Shown here in pieces: positions 3,943 through 42,918 of a stretch of DNA of 42,918 nt. A program made the translations under genes and the position numbers. Origin of the DNA: a virus; IMG/VR virus record IMGVR_UViG_3300045135_000061, positions 1 through 42,918 of that record. The stretch is one strand, 5' to 3'. The notes below the pieces were generated by a model. The model saw nothing but the letters and a program-made list of their open reading frames with translations, was not told the DNA's origin and made no database searches. Every line of letters starts with the position of its first letter. The stretch's first letter is position 1.

Positions 3943-4482
3943 CTAATCGTAAGTTTTATTGTTTTTAGATAAATTTAAATCAGCAGGTAGTACTTGAAGA
4001 TTCCACGGAACATGCAACCCACAGACATTCTTACCCTGCAAAGGGATTATATGATCTACATGGTATTCTTCACCACTTACTGATTTTAAATCCTTAGCCA
4101 ACCAGTAGAACTTATTTACTTCTTTAAAATGTTCTTTTGTTAACCACGGAGGAGTTGCATTTAACTTAGATGCTCTGCGTTTTGCAGTATGAGCAACTAC
4201 CTTATCAGGATTTCTTTTTTTCCACTTTTTCTTTGCTTTTCTAACTACGTCAGGATTATTCTCATGATACTTTAAGTTCTTGGCTTGTACAGTTTCTTTA
4301 TTTTTTAAATAGTACTCTTTAGACTTAGAAACTATAAGGTCAGCGTTTTCTTTCTTGTATGAGTTAGTACTTTTTCTGTAACAATCTTTACAGGAAGAAT
4401 GAAAACCTGTCTTTGTTCCTTTTGCTTTATAGTACTCTGAGAAGGGTTTTTCTACAAAACACTTCTTGCAAACATATGTCAT
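3943..4482 (-). CDS. HNH homing endonuclease
   Basis: 179 residues. The N-terminal zinc module has a CKKC pair and a CKDC pair in an EKPFSEYYKAKG context. A highly basic Lys-rich linker follows, then a C-terminal HNH core (YHVDHIIPLQG, GLHVPWNLQVLP, NLSKNNK). The start at 4482 gives an ATGA overlap with the stop of the upstream 97-residue virion gene; the longer reading from 4500 lies inside that gene. It probably cleaves a cognate DNA site and spreads among related phages. The N-terminal module resembles that of the endonuclease VII-like gene at 1696-2139 although the nuclease cores differ. Confidence 0.85.
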   Translation of the reverse strand: MTYVCKKCFVEKPFSEYYKAKGTKTGFHSSCKDCYRKSTNSYKKENADLIVSKSKEYYLKNKETVQAKNLKYHENNPDVVRKAKKKWKKRNPDKVVAHTAKRRASKLNATPPWLTKEHFKEVNKFYWLAKDLKSVSGEEYHVDHIIPLQGKNVCGLHVPWNLQVLPADLNLSKNNKTYD

Positions 4483-4772
4483 GATGACACACGGAACCAT
4501 ATATCGCCATCTTCACCACCTGTAGGGCTTGCTGTGCTGACAGTAACATTGTCTAAGACATTCAGTACGTTTACACCATCTACATAGATAGCACGTACAT
4601 TTAAAAGATCATTTTCGTTTAGGTCTAAGTCAGCTTGCATAGCATTAGGAGTACTACCATCTAACGATAGAGTGTTATCGAATGCTGTTTGAATATTATT
4701 GAAGTTCTCATTTAACTGACTCTGTGAAGCATAGCCAGAACTAATCGTATTTACTGTAGGCCGTTTAGCCAT
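4479..4772 (-). CDS. Small virion protein resembling fibre N-termini
   Basis: 97 residues. The segment ASQSQLNENFNNIQTAF, followed by NTLSLDGSTPNAMQADLDL and NDLLNV, is a recognisable N-terminal building block of phage tail fibre and head fibre proteins. The protein ends with GEDGDIWFRVSS. A strong ribosome binding site (GGGAGG) precedes the ATG at 4772. It could be a short independent fibre-base protein. The adjoining HNH gene begins at its stop codon, so loss of a former C-terminal part by nuclease insertion is possible but not shown. Confidence 0.6.
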   Translation of the reverse strand: MAKRPTVNTISSGYASQSQLNENFNNIQTAFDNTLSLDGSTPNAMQADLDLNENDLLNVRAIYVDGVNVLNVLDNVTVSTASPTGGEDGDIWFRVSS

Positions 4773-5735: not shown

Positions 5736-5751
5736 ATAATTTCTTGTTGTA

Positions 5752-5764
5752 TTGTACAGTACAA
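5752..5764. promoter_or_regulatory. 13-base odd palindrome, possible operator
   Basis: TTGTACAGTACAA is a perfect inverted repeat around a central A. It lies between the stem-loops and the TGTGATCACA sites. A protein-binding site is possible; nothing else supports this. Confidence 0.3.
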
Positions 5765-5799
5765 GGCACACCCCCTTACCCCCTGCTCCCCACCCAGGA

Positions 5800-5882
5800 T
5801 GTGATCACAAAAAGTACCCCACCCCTCACTGTGATCACAAATAATACGTCAGGAATACTTACCTTTCCAGGATGTGATCACA
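5800..5882. repeat. Three TGTGATCACA palindromes
   Basis: The perfect 10-base palindrome occurs at 5800-5809, 5830-5839 and 5873-5882, each time followed by AA and twice preceded by GGA. The arms equal the CRP half-sites TGTGA/TCACA but without the usual six-base spacer, so a CRP-family or other dimeric regulator is only a guess. The spacings are 30 and 43 bases. Confidence 0.6.
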
Positions 5883-6014
5883 AATAGAATTGATACACTA
5901 TTGATATATGTTATATTGTAACACTTTCTAGGGGAAATACAATCTAGGTCAACAATCCTTACCTATCTGATTGATCTGAAACGGATAATACGTCAACAGT
6001 TCTTACCTATCTGT
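5848..6014 (+). repeat. Three 23-base iteron-like repeats
   Basis: Copies at 5848-5870, 5948-5970 and 5992-6014 share GTCA followed by CTTACCT. The last two agree at 20 of 23 positions, and ATAATACGTCA leads into the first and third. Repeats of this kind near AT-rich DNA are usual at initiator-binding origins; function is inferred. Confidence 0.5.
5890..5917 (+). promoter_or_regulatory. Candidate early promoter
   Basis: TTGATA (5890-5895), 16 bases, then TATATT (5912-5917). It overlaps the end of the third TGTGATCACA site neighbourhood, so it could be regulated there. It points toward the early genes. Confidence 0.35.
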
Positions 6015-36571: not shown

Positions 36572-38311
36572 TTAAATTCCCATCTCTTGAGCAGACATTA
36601 ACTCTTCTTCATTCAGCATCTCTGCTTCTTGAGCCATCTTCTGCGTTTCTAGTTGCTCACTAATAGTGATGTTCTCACCGTATAGTGTTGGTTCACCTAA
36701 TTCGTAAGCAATGATACGAGCTAGTTCTTTACCTGATAGGTGTGGAGCTACAGTAGGGTCTTGTGCTTTAACTGCAGACAACTGAATCAAGTTCTGGATT
36801 CTACGAGCACGTTCAGCAAAGTGTCTTGCGCCGATAGGAACAATCTTACCTGTAGCTGTAATATCCTCTCGTGTAATTTCTAAGAACTTTAGAACACCGA
36901 TGTCTTCGTCTGAGACACGTACTACATCAGCACGGTTCATGTAACGACGAGCAGTCTCAAGCATAGTATTCAACATTGGTTCTAGGAATGTACGCTCGAA
37001 GTGTGCAGCCTTGTGTTCAAAGATACGAGATGCAGAGTTCTGTAGTGTCTGTACTTCGAATGCAGTCTTCTCACCTGGGGTACGGATACCCATAGCTTGT
37101 TTAGGCGCACCTGCCATCTCTTCCATCTTAGCTTCTAAGATTTGAATCTGCATGTCTGCGTTTAGTGCAGTAGCATCAGGAGCCATGTAACCTACATCAC
37201 CCTCTTCACCCATGTATATACGAGCACCAGGTTCGAAGTCGAAGTCCTCTACATCACCCTTGACTTTCAAGATAGGGTAAGCGATCTGGTCAAACACATC
37301 TGCCTTTAGGTTCTCTAGGTGATCAATGCGGTACTGCATACCTACAAGATTATCTAGTGGACCCATAGCGTAGAGGTTGTCTGGGCGGTTACGCCACCCA
37401 CTGTGGAAGATCGGGGATTTACCTAACCATGATGGATTCTCTTGGTTGTCTAGAACATACGCACGATCCACGACAGTGATGATACGGTCTGACATAAACT
37501 CACCAGACTCTTGATCGTAGACATCACCGTAGAATGTTAGAATCTCTACGTAGTCTGATTCGTAGTATTGTTGGATGTTAGAGAAACCATCTGCTACAAA
37601 CCCCTCGCCTTTATCAACAAATCCCTCTGAAGAAGAAACTGTCTGTCGAGCACCAAGCATCTTATCGAATACTTTAGATAGGTACTTGTTTTTAGGATCA
37701 GCATCTATCATACGTTTGATTTCACCTAAAGACTTAATAGTCTTAATAATCTTAGGTGAATCCTCAAAGGATGATGCAGTAGGGTTAAAGCAAATATCGT
37801 ATGGAGAGATACGTACTACTTTAGGTCCAGTGTACTTAGGGATGTATTCACCATCCTCTTTAGTAACAAAACCATCTTCCCACTCAACCATAGCGAAGCA
37901 GTTACCATATAGAATCCAATCCTGAATAAGATCAGATACAGTGTTTAATAGGTCAGACTGCCTTACCTTGTTTTCCATATAGGATTGAATAATATCACGT
38001 TTAGCTTTTACTGCAGCATCTCGTGAGTCAGCTTCCCACTTCATCCACTTCTGTTGTGGAAACAATGTAGCAAAGTAGTTAGCGTGTAGGTTATCTGCAA
38101 TCTGTGTAATCTTAGGAGTAGTCGTTGTGTTAGACCAAGGAAGGATTGCGTTAGCAGTAGTAGTCGTATCTGTAGCGTATACGTAGTTACGTAGCTCTTT
38201 ACTTTGTTCGATCCAATCTTGACGAAGCTTGTTCCAAGTATTCCACTTGTTAGCTATTTCTACAGCAAGGTTATCTGGATCAATGATTTGTTCAATGTCG
38301 ATAGTTTCCAT
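36572..38311 (-). CDS. Portal (head-tail connector) protein
   Basis: 579 residues, T7 gp8 being 536. The N-terminal helical part (NKWNTWNKLRQDWIEQSKEL), LHANYFATLFPQQKWMKWEA, LIQDWILYGNCFAMVEWEDG and VRISPYDICFNPTASSFED are portal-family features. A C-terminal IVPIGARHFAERARRIQNLI region forms the crown side. It starts in a TAATG overlap with terL, as is common. It is the dodecameric DNA channel to which TerL docks. Confidence 0.88.
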   Translation of the reverse strand: METIDIEQIIDPDNLAVEIANKWNTWNKLRQDWIEQSKELRNYVYATDTTTTANAILPWSNTTTTPKITQIADNLHANYFATLFPQQKWMKWEADSRDAAVKAKRDIIQSYMENKVRQSDLLNTVSDLIQDWILYGNCFAMVEWEDGFVTKEDGEYIPKYTGPKVVRISPYDICFNPTASSFEDSPKIIKTIKSLGEIKRMIDADPKNKYLSKVFDKMLGARQTVSSSEGFVDKGEGFVADGFSNIQQYYESDYVEILTFYGDVYDQESGEFMSDRIITVVDRAYVLDNQENPSWLGKSPIFHSGWRNRPDNLYAMGPLDNLVGMQYRIDHLENLKADVFDQIAYPILKVKGDVEDFDFEPGARIYMGEEGDVGYMAPDATALNADMQIQILEAKMEEMAGAPKQAMGIRTPGEKTAFEVQTLQNSASRIFEHKAAHFERTFLEPMLNTMLETARRYMNRADVVRVSDEDIGVLKFLEITREDITATGKIVPIGARHFAERARRIQNLIQLSAVKAQDPTVAPHLSGKELARIIAYELGEPTLYGENITISEQLETQKMAQEAEMLNEEELMSAQEMGI

Positions 38312-39858
38312 TATCTACTCCCTGCTCTGAAACGACTATTCGCCCAGACAATATTGCTTTCACGTTTCCTATTAAGGTTACGAGTTGGACGCACAGCCAT
38401 ATCTACGGCAGATGCTAGAGCGTCAATTACGTCATCGTGTGGTGGGTTACGAGAAGATAGTTCGTCTTCTAAGTACTGTGTATTGCCCCCACGGTAATGC
38501 CACATTTGAAGGTTATCATATCTAGGTTCTAAGACAGAAGCGATACGCTCTTGTTTATTACCTTGTTGCTTGTTAGGTCTAAACTCGTCAATGCTAAGAG
38601 ACAGACCGTGTTGTTTAATTAACTCTTTTAGTTGCTTCACGATAGCCATCTGTGCAACAGTAACCTCTGCACGTAGCTTACGGAATGACCACTTACTATG
38701 CATATCAAAGATGTGATCGAAGTACTCTGATATACGTTCTGTTCTGAACCTGTCGATGTCTAGAACATAAACATTATTATCTGCATCTACTCCTACAAGC
38801 ACCAAGGCAGTGTAGTCAGCTTTTGCTCTCATACTAAACGCAAAGTCAATAGCAGCAAATAGATTAAGTTTATTATCTTTGTAGTACCAGAAACCATTGT
38901 CTAGATGTAAATGCTTCCTGTCGAAGTATTGTATCTTGTCTCGGCCTACAGGTACGTTATCTGGATCACTAGGATCGTTGTAGTACTGTGCTCGGAACTG
39001 ACCTTTGTCTAGGTACTTACCACGTTTCTTAGCAAGTGTAGCTATATCAAACCCGAACCACTTACCATCTTTACGTTGTTGTTTAGGCCATAGGAACTCA
39101 CCAGTACCGTCACCACGATTCTCTACAGGTTTCTCTAGAATCTCGTATATCTGATCCTCACCTGTCTGTTCACCCTGATCATCATAGAGAACTTCTTTCA
39201 TCTCCATCAGATCGTTGTACAAGTCCTTACTGTGGTAGCGTGTACCTACTACCCATTCCCTAGCGTCAGCACCTTCGATAGACGACAGCAATGAGTACTG
39301 ACTTGCTACCTTGTTACGGCCCTCTAGGGTAAGAGCATTCTCAGCTACAACTACGTCATCAAGTACAGCAATGTCACAGTGTAGACCTGTCAGTGATGTA
39401 GTCAGACCGCCTGTAAAGATACTAGGGTCACGGACGTTCTCTTGCTTACGTAGTGGATGATCTAAGCTAATCTCTGAGTTAGTCCACCGTGTACGTTTAC
39501 CTTCCTCTGCGTGGATGTGTTCAGGCCAGTAACGTCTATAGATTTCTGAGGTAAAGATACCTTTAATAAAACTAAGTTGTTTCTCAGCGAGGTTTGCTGT
39601 AGCAGAGATATACAGGATACGTAGTGTAGGGTCTTTAGTTAGTTCCCATGCTACCCTGAACGCCACGAGTCTAGACTTCTGATGATCTCGTGGAAAGAGA
39701 AGAAGCTGATAGTTACGTGCATCCTCTCTTGTCCACCATTCTATGACCTCTCTATGGCAATCGCCCATGACCTGTTGAGGGGCAACTAACTGAATAAAGA
39801 ACTCTAGATCATTCTCAGCAGCTTGCCGTATCTGGTCTGTTGCTTTTAGCTTTGCCAT
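38311..39858 (-). CDS. terL: Terminase large subunit
   Basis: 515 residues. The ATPase has a non-classical Walker A (PRDHQKS, residues 56-62), an ILYISATANLAEKQ segment and Walker B (IAVLDDVVVAE) near residue 165. The nuclease domain has AIDFAFSMRAKADYTALVLV and a C-terminal PPHDDVIDALASAVDM acidic site. The order and motifs follow T7 gp19 (586 residues). It packages DNA through the portal. A TAAGGAACC site precedes the ATG. Confidence 0.92.
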   Translation of the reverse strand: MAKLKATDQIRQAAENDLEFFIQLVAPQQVMGDCHREVIEWWTREDARNYQLLLFPRDHQKSRLVAFRVAWELTKDPTLRILYISATANLAEKQLSFIKGIFTSEIYRRYWPEHIHAEEGKRTRWTNSEISLDHPLRKQENVRDPSIFTGGLTTSLTGLHCDIAVLDDVVVAENALTLEGRNKVASQYSLLSSIEGADAREWVVGTRYHSKDLYNDLMEMKEVLYDDQGEQTGEDQIYEILEKPVENRGDGTGEFLWPKQQRKDGKWFGFDIATLAKKRGKYLDKGQFRAQYYNDPSDPDNVPVGRDKIQYFDRKHLHLDNGFWYYKDNKLNLFAAIDFAFSMRAKADYTALVLVGVDADNNVYVLDIDRFRTERISEYFDHIFDMHSKWSFRKLRAEVTVAQMAIVKQLKELIKQHGLSLSIDEFRPNKQQGNKQERIASVLEPRYDNLQMWHYRGGNTQYLEDELSSRNPPHDDVIDALASAVDMAVRPTRNLNRKRESNIVWANSRFRAGSR

Positions 39859-39885: not shown

Positions 39886-40398
39886 TTAAGGTGCTACAGG
39901 CCAGTCCTCGTCTGCTAGGTTAGGCCATGCGTCTAGGTCTGTAATACCACGAAGCTCTTGTCTATAGGTGGCCCACAGAGTTTTAGCTTCATTGGTCAGA
40001 GGGCTGTCATTCATCTGCGTCCAATCGCTGTCAGCCAATAGCTTGTTGCGTGTGGTGCGATGACCTTCGGCAGTCTTGGCATCTAGCCCTGCTTGATACG
40101 CAGCTTCATGCTCTGCCTTGGTTGTCGTAACGCCATCCTCGTCAGTAGTGTCTGAGAACATGTCACGAGCAACGTAGTTTTCCACCCAGTTACCGTTGGC
40201 ATCTTGAACAACACCATCACGCACTGATACCTGATAGTCACCTACGGTAGCCGCTGGGCTGCGTAGCACTGGGTCTAGGTCTAGTGCATCTAGGGTTGCC
40301 GCTTTCCAGACACGAGGTAGGGACATGTTGGGATTAGCTGCCCTAATCTGCCCTTGCGTCATTACAACGCCAGTAGTTCTATTACGATATTCGCCCAT
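39886..40398 (-). CDS. Tail fibre assembly chaperone-like protein
   Basis: 170 residues. The C-terminal part, TRNKLLADSDWTQMNDSPLT, then LWATYRQELRGIT and PNLADEDWPVAP, is the phage tail-assembly chaperone signature. The N-terminal part (MGEYRNRTTGVVMTQGQIRA) is a short variable segment and a YQVSVRDGVVQDANG strand pair lies in the middle. It lies on the 3' side of the tail protein gene with one HNH-type gene between them, which fits a chaperone for that fibre. Confidence 0.7.
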   Translation of the reverse strand: MGEYRNRTTGVVMTQGQIRAANPNMSLPRVWKAATLDALDLDPVLRSPAATVGDYQVSVRDGVVQDANGNWVENYVARDMFSDTTDEDGVTTTKAEHEAAYQAGLDAKTAEGHRTTRNKLLADSDWTQMNDSPLTNEAKTLWATYRQELRGITDLDAWPNLADEDWPVAP

Positions 40399-40409
40399 AG
40401 TATTCTCCT

Positions 40410-41027
40410 CTAGGCTTGATGATTGGTTGGTTGACTAACTGCTACCTGAGCATCCCAACCGCTTTTAATTCGTTTCAATGCAGTGCTTGGGTCAATGCCG
40501 TTCTCACTGCACCAATCTGACATGATCTTTGTTACGCCATCAATCGTAATGTTCCTGTTATTTCTACGATTGCGCGACTGCTCTGCCGTTGTGGCCCACT
40601 TACAGTTTTCCTTAGAGTAAGGCCCATCAACATCAATGCGATCCAATGAACACCCCTCTGGGGCATCACCCATATCCGCATAAAAAGCATCAAATGACTT
40701 AGACCATTCGTCTGACACCTTAATACCTCTTGCACCATACCATTGATAGGATGCATCTGATGGGTTTTCACAGCGCAACTTCATGTTAGTCCACACAGAA
40801 TAAATCTTAGACTTTGACTTACCGTGTCTAGTGTTTCTTTTGTGCCTAGTAGAACCACAGCCACAAGATGTAACACTTCCAGACAACATTCCTTTACCTG
40901 TGCCTACATATTCAGAACCGCAGTCACAGGCGCACAACCAAGCAGCACGACCATTCACAGAACCATGCCGCTTAGAAACCGTTAGGCTTCCAAACCGTTG
41001 CCCTGTTATGTCTTTTACTGCACTCAT
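40410..41027 (-). CDS. HNH/AP2-type endonuclease-like protein
   Basis: 205 residues. An N-terminal zinc-ribbon part (WLCACDCGSEYVGTGKGM, then CGCGS) precedes the conserved block YSVWTNMKLRCENP, YQWYGARGIKVSDEW, GCSLDRIDVDGPYSKENCKW and EQSRNRRNNR. This family is common in phages as HNH or AP2-like homing nucleases. A C-terminal helix-turn-helix-like part (MSDWCSENGIDPSTALKRIK) would bind DNA. It separates the tail protein and its chaperone. The ribosome site is AAAGGATC. Confidence 0.75.
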   Translation of the reverse strand: MSAVKDITGQRFGSLTVSKRHGSVNGRAAWLCACDCGSEYVGTGKGMLSGSVTSCGCGSTRHKRNTRHGKSKSKIYSVWTNMKLRCENPSDASYQWYGARGIKVSDEWSKSFDAFYADMGDAPEGCSLDRIDVDGPYSKENCKWATTAEQSRNRRNNRNITIDGVTKIMSDWCSENGIDPSTALKRIKSGWDAQVAVSQPTNHQA

Positions 41028-41054: not shown

Positions 41055-42918
41055 TTAGGCGATTGCGTAGAAGATGTAGTTTGCGCCATTGATGTTGTTT
41101 ATGCTAGAACCGACTACACTAAATCCACTACTGTGCGGGTCAACATTATCAAAAGAGGCCTCCGCATCTGTGCTTTCTAGTTTTAGACGTGGATCGTTTC
41201 CAGCTACAATACCTCGCTCACTATCCCATACATACCAAGAGCCGCCACCGTCTGTTCTTTTAATCAACACAAACCTAGCACCACTGCTAAAACCACAGTC
41301 AATAACCTTAGAGCCATCTGTAGTCCCATCACCAGTATAACTCCCCACCTTGGATACACCATCAAGTGAGGCGAATAGGTAGGCTATGTAGGTAGTGCCA
41401 GAGTTATTAGTATTAGCATCAGCACCAACTGAAAAGACGCTATCAGTCGGCAGTGTGGAGTTCCAGCTTGTCCCAGTAGATGCTACGGCATAATCGTTAT
41501 TTAATTCTAGCCGCTGATTTGCAGTCAACGCCTCATGCCAGACACGCCAAGCAGTTGTGCCCGACCTAGCCTTCACCCACATCATCTCTGGCACAACACC
41601 AAGGTTATGGCTTACAGTACGCCCTGCTGTTCCGTTGCCTGTGTATGCGACTACATCACAGAACGAGGGCGCACGTTTCCATTGCCAAAACACACTATCT
41701 TCGGATGTCCCACCAGAGTTGTTTCCATAGCCACCTGCTGCAATATAGTTGTTCGTGTTATGGTCAAACTCAATATAAGTTAAACCAGAGGTTTCTACAT
41801 TTGTGCTATCTGTGTAAGATATGGTGCCACTGCCACGTATTCTATCTGTGATGTAGTTAAAACCTCCTGCTATGTACCTATTACGTGATAATACCATATC
41901 AATGACATCAGTGTTACCAAGGTATAATGGTGAAGTGCTAGGCTCTCCAACTTCATCATGAACATTAAACACCTCAGTCGCATCAGTAGGCACAGCCATA
42001 GGGCCTCTGCGTATGGCTATGTAGATGTAGTTTTGACCATTTGTATTATATTGTGACTGTGTTTGGTTAATTTGAAAACCGTTAGGGAGAATGTCTATGC
42101 CCCACAAGTTAGCCGCAGAAGCCTCAGTGTCATATGTATTTGGTCTTAGAATATTACTGTACGTACCTTGGTTAGTACCTCTCATAATATCAAACATTAA
42201 CCAATGACCAGTATCATCTAGTGATTTTATTAGTACCCACTGAGGCTCAAACCCTAAGTCAATCTCAGGGCCAGTAGCAGAGCCATTACCAGTATAACTC
42301 CCACACTTAATAATATCTTGGTCAGCATCAGGACCGAAGTCCCCGTCACCGTCATTGTGGGCGAATAGGTAGGCAACGTAGGTGCCGCCAGAGGCGTTTA
42401 CGGTAGAACTGCCGCTTATAGAAAACTCTGTGCTTGTTGGCTCCGTACTACTCCATATGGTTGTCGCTGCTCTAGCATTAGTAAGATTTAGGTTTATTAT
42501 ATAACCTGATCCGTTATTTGTAGGGTGTATCGCTCTATGATAAACTTTCCAATTTTCTGCACTATCAGTTCGCTTTACTATGATACAGCCCGGAACACTG
42601 CCTAGATTATGGCTGATTGTTGTAGCAGAACCTGTCCCAGTATAAGTCACCACATCAAAGAACTTAGGGGCTTTGCGAAAAGAAAAGCTTACTTGATCTC
42701 TACCGCTTCCGTTGGATGCAGCGTGTGAACCGACATTAAAACCATTTGCGTTAAATGATGTTACTGATCCTGTCTCTTGACTAGAAGCCGCAGTTTCATC
42801 TGAACGTATTTGATAAGTTGCTCCTCTTTCAGTATCAACAAGTCGCCAACTAGAGTTAGACCCACGACTTTTTAACCATACCAACCCACCTTCGCCAGCA
42901 TCGGCTGCGTCAAAGGGG
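41055..42918 (-). CDS. Tail/fibre protein, second version, N-terminus cut by window edge
   Basis: Open from the right edge to the stop at 41055 (621 codons visible); no credible start lies inside, and a TTG at 42884 falls within the repeated GEGGLVW strand. The modules are the same as in the left-edge gene, for example GGTYVAYLFAHNDGDGDFG, YIAIRRGPMAVP, FFDVVTYTG and SHNLG. The C-terminal segment 41264-41390 is identical in DNA to bases 1-127. Variable stretches alternate with near-identical ones along the whole length. It is an allele or a tandem paralogue of the same tail protein. Confidence 0.8.
   Translation of the reverse strand, partial: PFDAADAGEGGLVWLKSRGSNSSWRLVDTERGATYQIRSDETAASSQETGSVTSFNANGFNVGSHAASNGSGRDQVSFSFRKAPKFFDVVTYTGTGSATTISHNLGSVPGCIIVKRTDSAENWKVYHRAIHPTNNGSGYIINLNLTNARAATTIWSSTEPTSTEFSISGSSTVNASGGTYVAYLFAHNDGDGDFGPDADQDIIKCGSYTGNGSATGPEIDLGFEPQWVLIKSLDDTGHWLMFDIMRGTNQGTYSNILRPNTYDTEASAANLWGIDILPNGFQINQTQSQYNTNGQNYIYIAIRRGPMAVPTDATEVFNVHDEVGEPSTSPLYLGNTDVIDMVLSRNRYIAGGFNYITDRIRGSGTISYTDSTNVETSGLTYIEFDHNTNNYIAAGGYGNNSGGTSEDSVFWQWKRAPSFCDVVAYTGNGTAGRTVSHNLGVVPEMMWVKARSGTTAWRVWHEALTANQRLELNNDYAVASTGTSWNSTLPTDSVFSVGADANTNNSGTTYIAYLFASLDGVSKVGSYTGDGTTDGSKVIDCGFSSGARFVLIKRTDGGGSWYVWDSERGIVAGNDPRLKLESTDAEASFDNVDPHSSGFSVVGSSINNINGANYIFYAIA
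41264..41390. repeat. 127-bp exact repeat of bases 1-127
   Basis: Identical to the left end of the window, in the same reading frame of the tail gene. Beyond 41390 the two genes remain homologous but differ at many bases. Cutting the window at 41263 and joining to base 1 keeps the tail frame open. Confidence 0.95.

Follow-up and report, generated by a model that had tools for sequence, protein, structure and literature searches.

Genes and contig ends at the tail locus

We analyzed a window comprising the whole of a 42,918-nucleotide virus record (IMGVR_UViG_3300045135_000061), which IMG/VR classes as linear. Judged by its genes, its backbone is that of a marine Roseobacter-phage genome, a podophage of the Cobavirinae (Zobellviridae) of about 41 kb. 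The window carries conserved Cobavirinae genes, namely ribonucleotide reductase, a DnaB-like primase/helicase, a family A polymerase, and ThyX, in synteny with the isolates. The closest isolate found was Roseobacter phage CRP-4, which shares with the window long collinear DNA stretches at 65–81% identity over most of the genome, as well as a large terminase (38311–39858) of 91% amino acid identity. This gene and the other window genes given below with coordinates lie on the minus strand.

Near the right end of the window, the terminase is accompanied by a tail assembly chaperone (39886–40398; PF16778), a free-standing HNH endonuclease gene (40410–41027) that separates tail and chaperone, and the 3' 336 bases of a tail gene (41055–41390), which encode its last domain and stop codon. 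The contig holds a single copy of this 3' part, which is used by two versions of the gene. Version L occupies positions 1–1696 (codons 1–565) as an open frame with a match to Pfam DUF7483 and runs over the join of the contig ends into 41263–41055. Version R has its private part at 41391–42918, identified by the same Pfam family and by a linker match to long relatives, and its 5' end is open at the contig end. Upstream of L, a free-standing gene of the endonuclease VII family (1696–2175; profile match) touches the tail start codon and overlaps the gene for a tail fiber/connector protein (2139–2756; 89% identical homologue of CRP-4 gp53), which forms the upstream border of the tail slot. Both endonuclease genes are absent from these places in CRP-4.

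The two ends of the contig share an exact segment, as the first-pass annotation had noticed. Bases 1–127, where the contig starts inside the tail gene at a branch point, are identical to bases 41264–41390, and the first mismatch is base 128 (A) against 41391 (G), from which the right copy diverges into version R. Chance is excluded as the source of a match of this length. Among the exact repeats of at least 25 bp in the contig, this one is the longest, and the other three (33, 38, and 42 bp) all pair L with R. Furthermore, the proposed join holds in frame: positions 41055–41263 followed by 1–1696 give 1905 bases, encoding 634 amino acids and a stop. Because joining 41263 to 1 restores both this open frame and the conserved connector–tail–chaperone–terminase order of CRP-4 and the relatives, the annotated circle of 41,263 bp is supported (the CRP-4 genome has 40,768 bp). 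Across the join, the full order reads connector, endonuclease VII, tail L, HNH endonuclease, chaperone, and terminase.

Could the 127-bp repeat be the physical terminal repeat of the phage? In the cited portion of Bischoff et al. 2019 (PMC6775973), the direct terminal repeats of cultivated cobaviruses measure 159–173 bp. In the window, motifs like those of the ICBM1 and ICBM2 terminal repeats (a conserved GC-rich start and an end motif) occur at 5751–5938, in a non-coding gap between the two arms of the genome, and this candidate region probably holds the phage's own terminal repeat, although an assembled circle cannot show ends. The 127-bp repeat lies inside a coding gene, far from these motifs, and was therefore rejected as a terminal repeat. 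The position of the motifs fits a circle assembly in which the overlap has no packaging role, and the earlier suggestion of a branch in the assembly graph is supported. A length of 127 is a usual maximum for k-mers in assembly.

The opening of a record inside the tail gene was seen a second time. In IMGVR_UViG_3300030104_000070 (G001; loci L180 and L250/L249; 43,003 bp), the last 100 bases match the first 98, after which the sequences diverge at a joint with the motif FRKAEKFF; this record probably represents an entire circular genome of about 42.9 kb that was cut open at the fiber gene. More generally, the contigs of cobavirus relatives end closer to the terminase on its tail side (median of 2,243 bases versus 6,357 on the other; Wilcoxon p = 1.2e-4, n = 47, with some contigs perhaps not independent). 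The hazard of a contig end remains elevated out to 6 kb, which points to the whole right-end module rather than the tail gene alone.

Two mosaic versions of the tail protein

The first reading took R as a second version of the same gene. Both L and R are DUF7483 (PF24299) tail proteins, scoring 280 and 364 bits, respectively, against a curated cut-off of 27. With the common 3' 336 bases left out, their aligned amino acid identity is 50%. L is a short form. R, read from 41055 to 42918 with the shared part included, starts with PFDAADAGEGGLVW, which resembles the linker at residues 240–270 of relatives that are 824–896 residues long. Short forms carry 'TITNGIDLxGEGG' at that place, and TITNGIDL-like residues occur in 48 short relatives. 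Since R starts like the linker of a long fiber, about 700–780 bases of it are probably missing; the number of lacking codons is probably about 240–260 and not about 43. All three long relatives scanned have a laminin-G domain ahead of DUF7483, and R is probably, from its linker, a long fiber of about 860 residues with such an N-terminal domain.

The tail protein has six variable segments (V1–V6) set between conserved joints. In version L, joint 1 (FRKAPKFFDVVTYTG) lies at 1286–1330, with the R copy at 42636–42677; joint 2 (TYVAYLFAHNDGDGDFGP...DQDIIKCGSY) lies at 944–1051, joint 3 (YIYIAIRRGPMAVP) at 677–718, and joint 4 (DVVAYTGNGTxGRTVSHNLGVxPEMMWVK) at 305–391. At joint 1, the DNA itself is conserved. 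Where L and R have the same residue, their codons are identical more often in the joints (75 of 99) than elsewhere (50 of 125; p = 9e-8), and the difference was significant at 0.05 in six of the seven pairs compared. A higher synonymous identity at the joints is as expected if exchange takes place there; constraint acting on the DNA itself would be the alternative explanation.

The variable segments are exchanged independently between these joints. Among 55 proteins, 19 of the 1485 pairs, including L/R, have one segment at least 80% identical and another at most 45% identical, a count stated without a null model and at thresholds picked by eye. For example, L136 and L142 are 97–100% alike in V1–V4 and 88% in V6, with only 25% in V5. 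Which segment is shared varies among the pairs (V1, V3, V4, V5, or V6), so the mosaicism cannot be put down to one segment that evolves slowly. At the 3' side, the versions L and R converge at a joint with the motif IAYLFA, as do L202 and L204; the pair L094/L239 converges just after it, and three other pairs that share V6 do so further downstream. By these alignments, the L/R branch sits at a recurrent recombination joint, though not the sole exit.

We also asked how the segments relate to the fold of the protein. A confident AlphaFold2 model of R (pLDDT 87, pTM 0.87) gave fold-comparison aligned ranges of residues 85–187, 202–303, 315–420, 416–517, and 520–620. These ranges begin close to joints, which gives the exchanged segments the look of entire beta-sandwich domains. 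The joints appear to coincide with the predicted domain boundaries, a correspondence read from residue numbers. No relative of the tail protein was found in the PDB by sequence; Foldseek gave weak matches only (best E of 6e-4, low TM), and VIA-align 2 gave none with a Z of at least 5.

The tail slot in relatives and the origin of the second version

To place L and R among their relatives, the interval from connector to chaperone was taken as the tail slot and clustered at 97%, which left 75 distinct slots with lengths of at most 3,253 bases. A single DUF7483 tail was present in 69 of them (one cluster having a split copy in addition), one held a split gene only, and five held an unrelated replacement. 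The tail in this slot varies on nearly constant backbones: with terminase genes 97–99% identical, tails may be only 62–72% identical (terminase/tail nucleotide identities of 99.0/66.8% for L202/L203, 98.7/71.0% for L206/L022, and 97.9/62.5% for L177/L182). In these same-backbone pairs, the flanks are near-identical, and identity drops only within the tail gene, starting 80–100 bases into it.

The unrelated proteins in the DUF7483 slot came from five distinct relatives at six loci (L173:3085-4746, L174:4609-6270, L183:2793-4232, L188:394-1752, L190:467-2044, and L205:7975-9498). Two of the four slot-replacing proteins scanned, those of L173 and L190, gave beta-propeller matches in Pfam that exceeded the curated cut-off. 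The chaperone beside the unrelated proteins has diverged too (41–64%), as if the two had been swapped jointly.

We consider it likely that the contig is one turn of a 41,263-bp Cobavirinae circle plus a second tail allele from other molecules, the alleles having been swapped by recombination. The contig would start at a branch in the tail-fiber gene, go once around a circularly permuted assembly, and then run 1,655 bases past its start. The 127 shared bases would be the branch node, and L and R its two branches, i.e., two forms of a single tail gene present on separate phage molecules in the sample. From the contigs, we infer that R is carried on the same backbone as L. Several observations count against this explanation: R stops mid-gene without returning to L, the bases certainly common to the R path and the backbone number only 127, tandem DUF7483 tails occur in more distant phages, the isolate ICBM2 has several fiber/chaperone modules, and near-identical copies of L and R were not found elsewhere (best 62% and 57%). 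A search with the last 44 bases of R, for R joined to other sequence, gave no match in viral contigs, a set from which records close to the window may be missing.

R might instead belong to another co-occurring phage that came to share the last tail domain through an older exchange, in which case the assembler walked across from one phage to the other. Otherwise different genes do have the last segment in common (L025/L088 at 99%, L094/L239 at 96%, and L029/L092 at 95%, with the other segments at 47% or less); moreover, R never rejoins L and, unlike the short L, probably has the long form. On the other hand, different tails do occur on backbones that are 97–99% alike, and the terminase genes of the long-tailed L168 and the short-tailed L172 are 95.8% alike. 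Therefore, no other species is needed to account for R, and we regard such a chimera as unlikely.

The first-pass annotation had also left room for a recent tandem duplication. In that case, L and R would lie next to each other in the same genome, and their common 3' end would have caused the contig to break between them. A repeat longer than k would likewise leave a k-length overlap, and full DUF7483 tails in tandem are known from two more distant phages of 54.7 and 39.1 kb, with a connector-like gene in between (L251, G006:44000-54687; L252, G009:6000-17000). Those copies, however, share 48–51% protein identity, and their 3' ends are far from identical. Given the diverged 3' ends and the intervening gene, it would be out of the ordinary for a head-to-tail copy to keep its 3' end exactly identical. 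Two full tail genes were found in none of the 75 distinct slots, and a second tail was seen in no relative at the 90% terminase level. With single-tail slots, swaps on the same backbones, and a second record opened inside the tail gene, two tail versions in one population are much better supported, and a duplication has in our judgment only a slim chance of being correct. Programmed switching within one phage would also give two receptor-binding gene versions with fixed ends, but both a diversity-generating retroelement and an invertible segment were rejected as exceedingly improbable, because the window has no reverse transcriptase (RVT_1; control search positive) and no inverted repeats better than 88%, and L and R differ along their whole length with many gaps and not adenine-specifically.

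Probable exchange of tail domains and comparison with known systems

If the contig does hold two alleles of one population, homologous recombination would have exchanged the variable part of the gene for another and returned to common sequence at the conserved joint, 336 bases ahead of the stop codon. The tail protein would be a string of beta-sandwich domains of about 100 residues each, and, because the DNA at the domain joints is alike between alleles, double crossovers between joints could swap domains singly or in blocks. Such swaps would alter the host-contacting surface while the N-terminal attachment and the chaperone are kept, and we infer an effect on the host range.

Could the endonuclease genes that flank the slot drive the replacement of the tail? 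They combine a match to an endonuclease family profile with a scattered presence in relatives, as free-standing homing endonucleases do. The HNH gene of the window has an 89% relative at the same place in L176, and other relatives have GIY-YIG genes (L088, L199) or a NUMOD3 homing-endonuclease-like gene (L122) between tail and chaperone. A third endonuclease-like gene (phrog_1035, endonuclease VII family) lies at 3943–4500, between the homologues of gp55 and gp56, and is absent there in CRP-4. In a mixed infection, the enzymes might cut the slot of a competitor, and repair would then copy the neighboring adhesin. Since endonucleases are present in few relatives while the swaps are general, they are possible contributors that are not needed, and a driving role seems doubtful to us. 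If true, selfish intronless homing would be one force that powers changes of host range among abundant marine phages.

The exchange helps account for the tendency of genomes in this group of marine phages to be interrupted at the tail module, and it provides a specific joint map for the natural exchange of a tail-fiber gene. It also carries a warning, as two alleles can sit in one contig and an IMG/VR record labeled linear can be a full circle that was cut open at a polymorphic fiber gene.

The phage belongs to the same group in which a variable tail-fiber module has been described. In the cited portion of the cobavirus study (Bischoff et al. 2019, PMC6775973), the region from the terminase to the right end is variable and missing from most environmental genomes. 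The allele exchange, the joints, and the flanking endonucleases seen here have no mention in that portion, and the word endonuclease does not occur in the text of the paper.

Among other phages, the lateral tail-fiber locus of the Markadamsvirinae (BASEL collection, PMC8594841) likewise combines high flanking identity with a drop at the fiber genes and scattered putative homing endonucleases, though in another phage family and with other fiber proteins. In T4-related phages, free-standing endonucleases bring about gene conversion in their vicinity (PMC2993671), and as in the intronless homing of T4 (SegF, SegG, MobE), their genes lie here beside exchanged genes and are unevenly distributed among relatives. 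Unlike in T4, the predicted enzymes occur in few relatives though the swaps are general.

A close parallel is with the T-even phages, in which recombination between conserved motifs reportedly swaps adhesin specificity (Tetart, Desplats and Krisch 1998). The distal tail-fiber adhesin of these phages (gp38/gp37) has, in the cited portion of PMC12529663, conserved motifs and hypervariable segments, and the tail gene of the window is likewise built of conserved motifs that separate hypervariable segments. Unlike gp38 with its glycine-rich loops, the protein here is an unrelated string of DUF7483 beta-sandwiches in a 41-kb podophage, with joints that appear to lie at predicted domain boundaries. 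The variation between L and R is thus natural variation of a known type, tail-adhesin mosaicism as in T-even gp38, to which the present analysis adds the phage group, the rejection of a terminal repeat, the probability that R is a long form, and the placement of the branch in a multi-domain tail protein, at a joint where recombination recurs.
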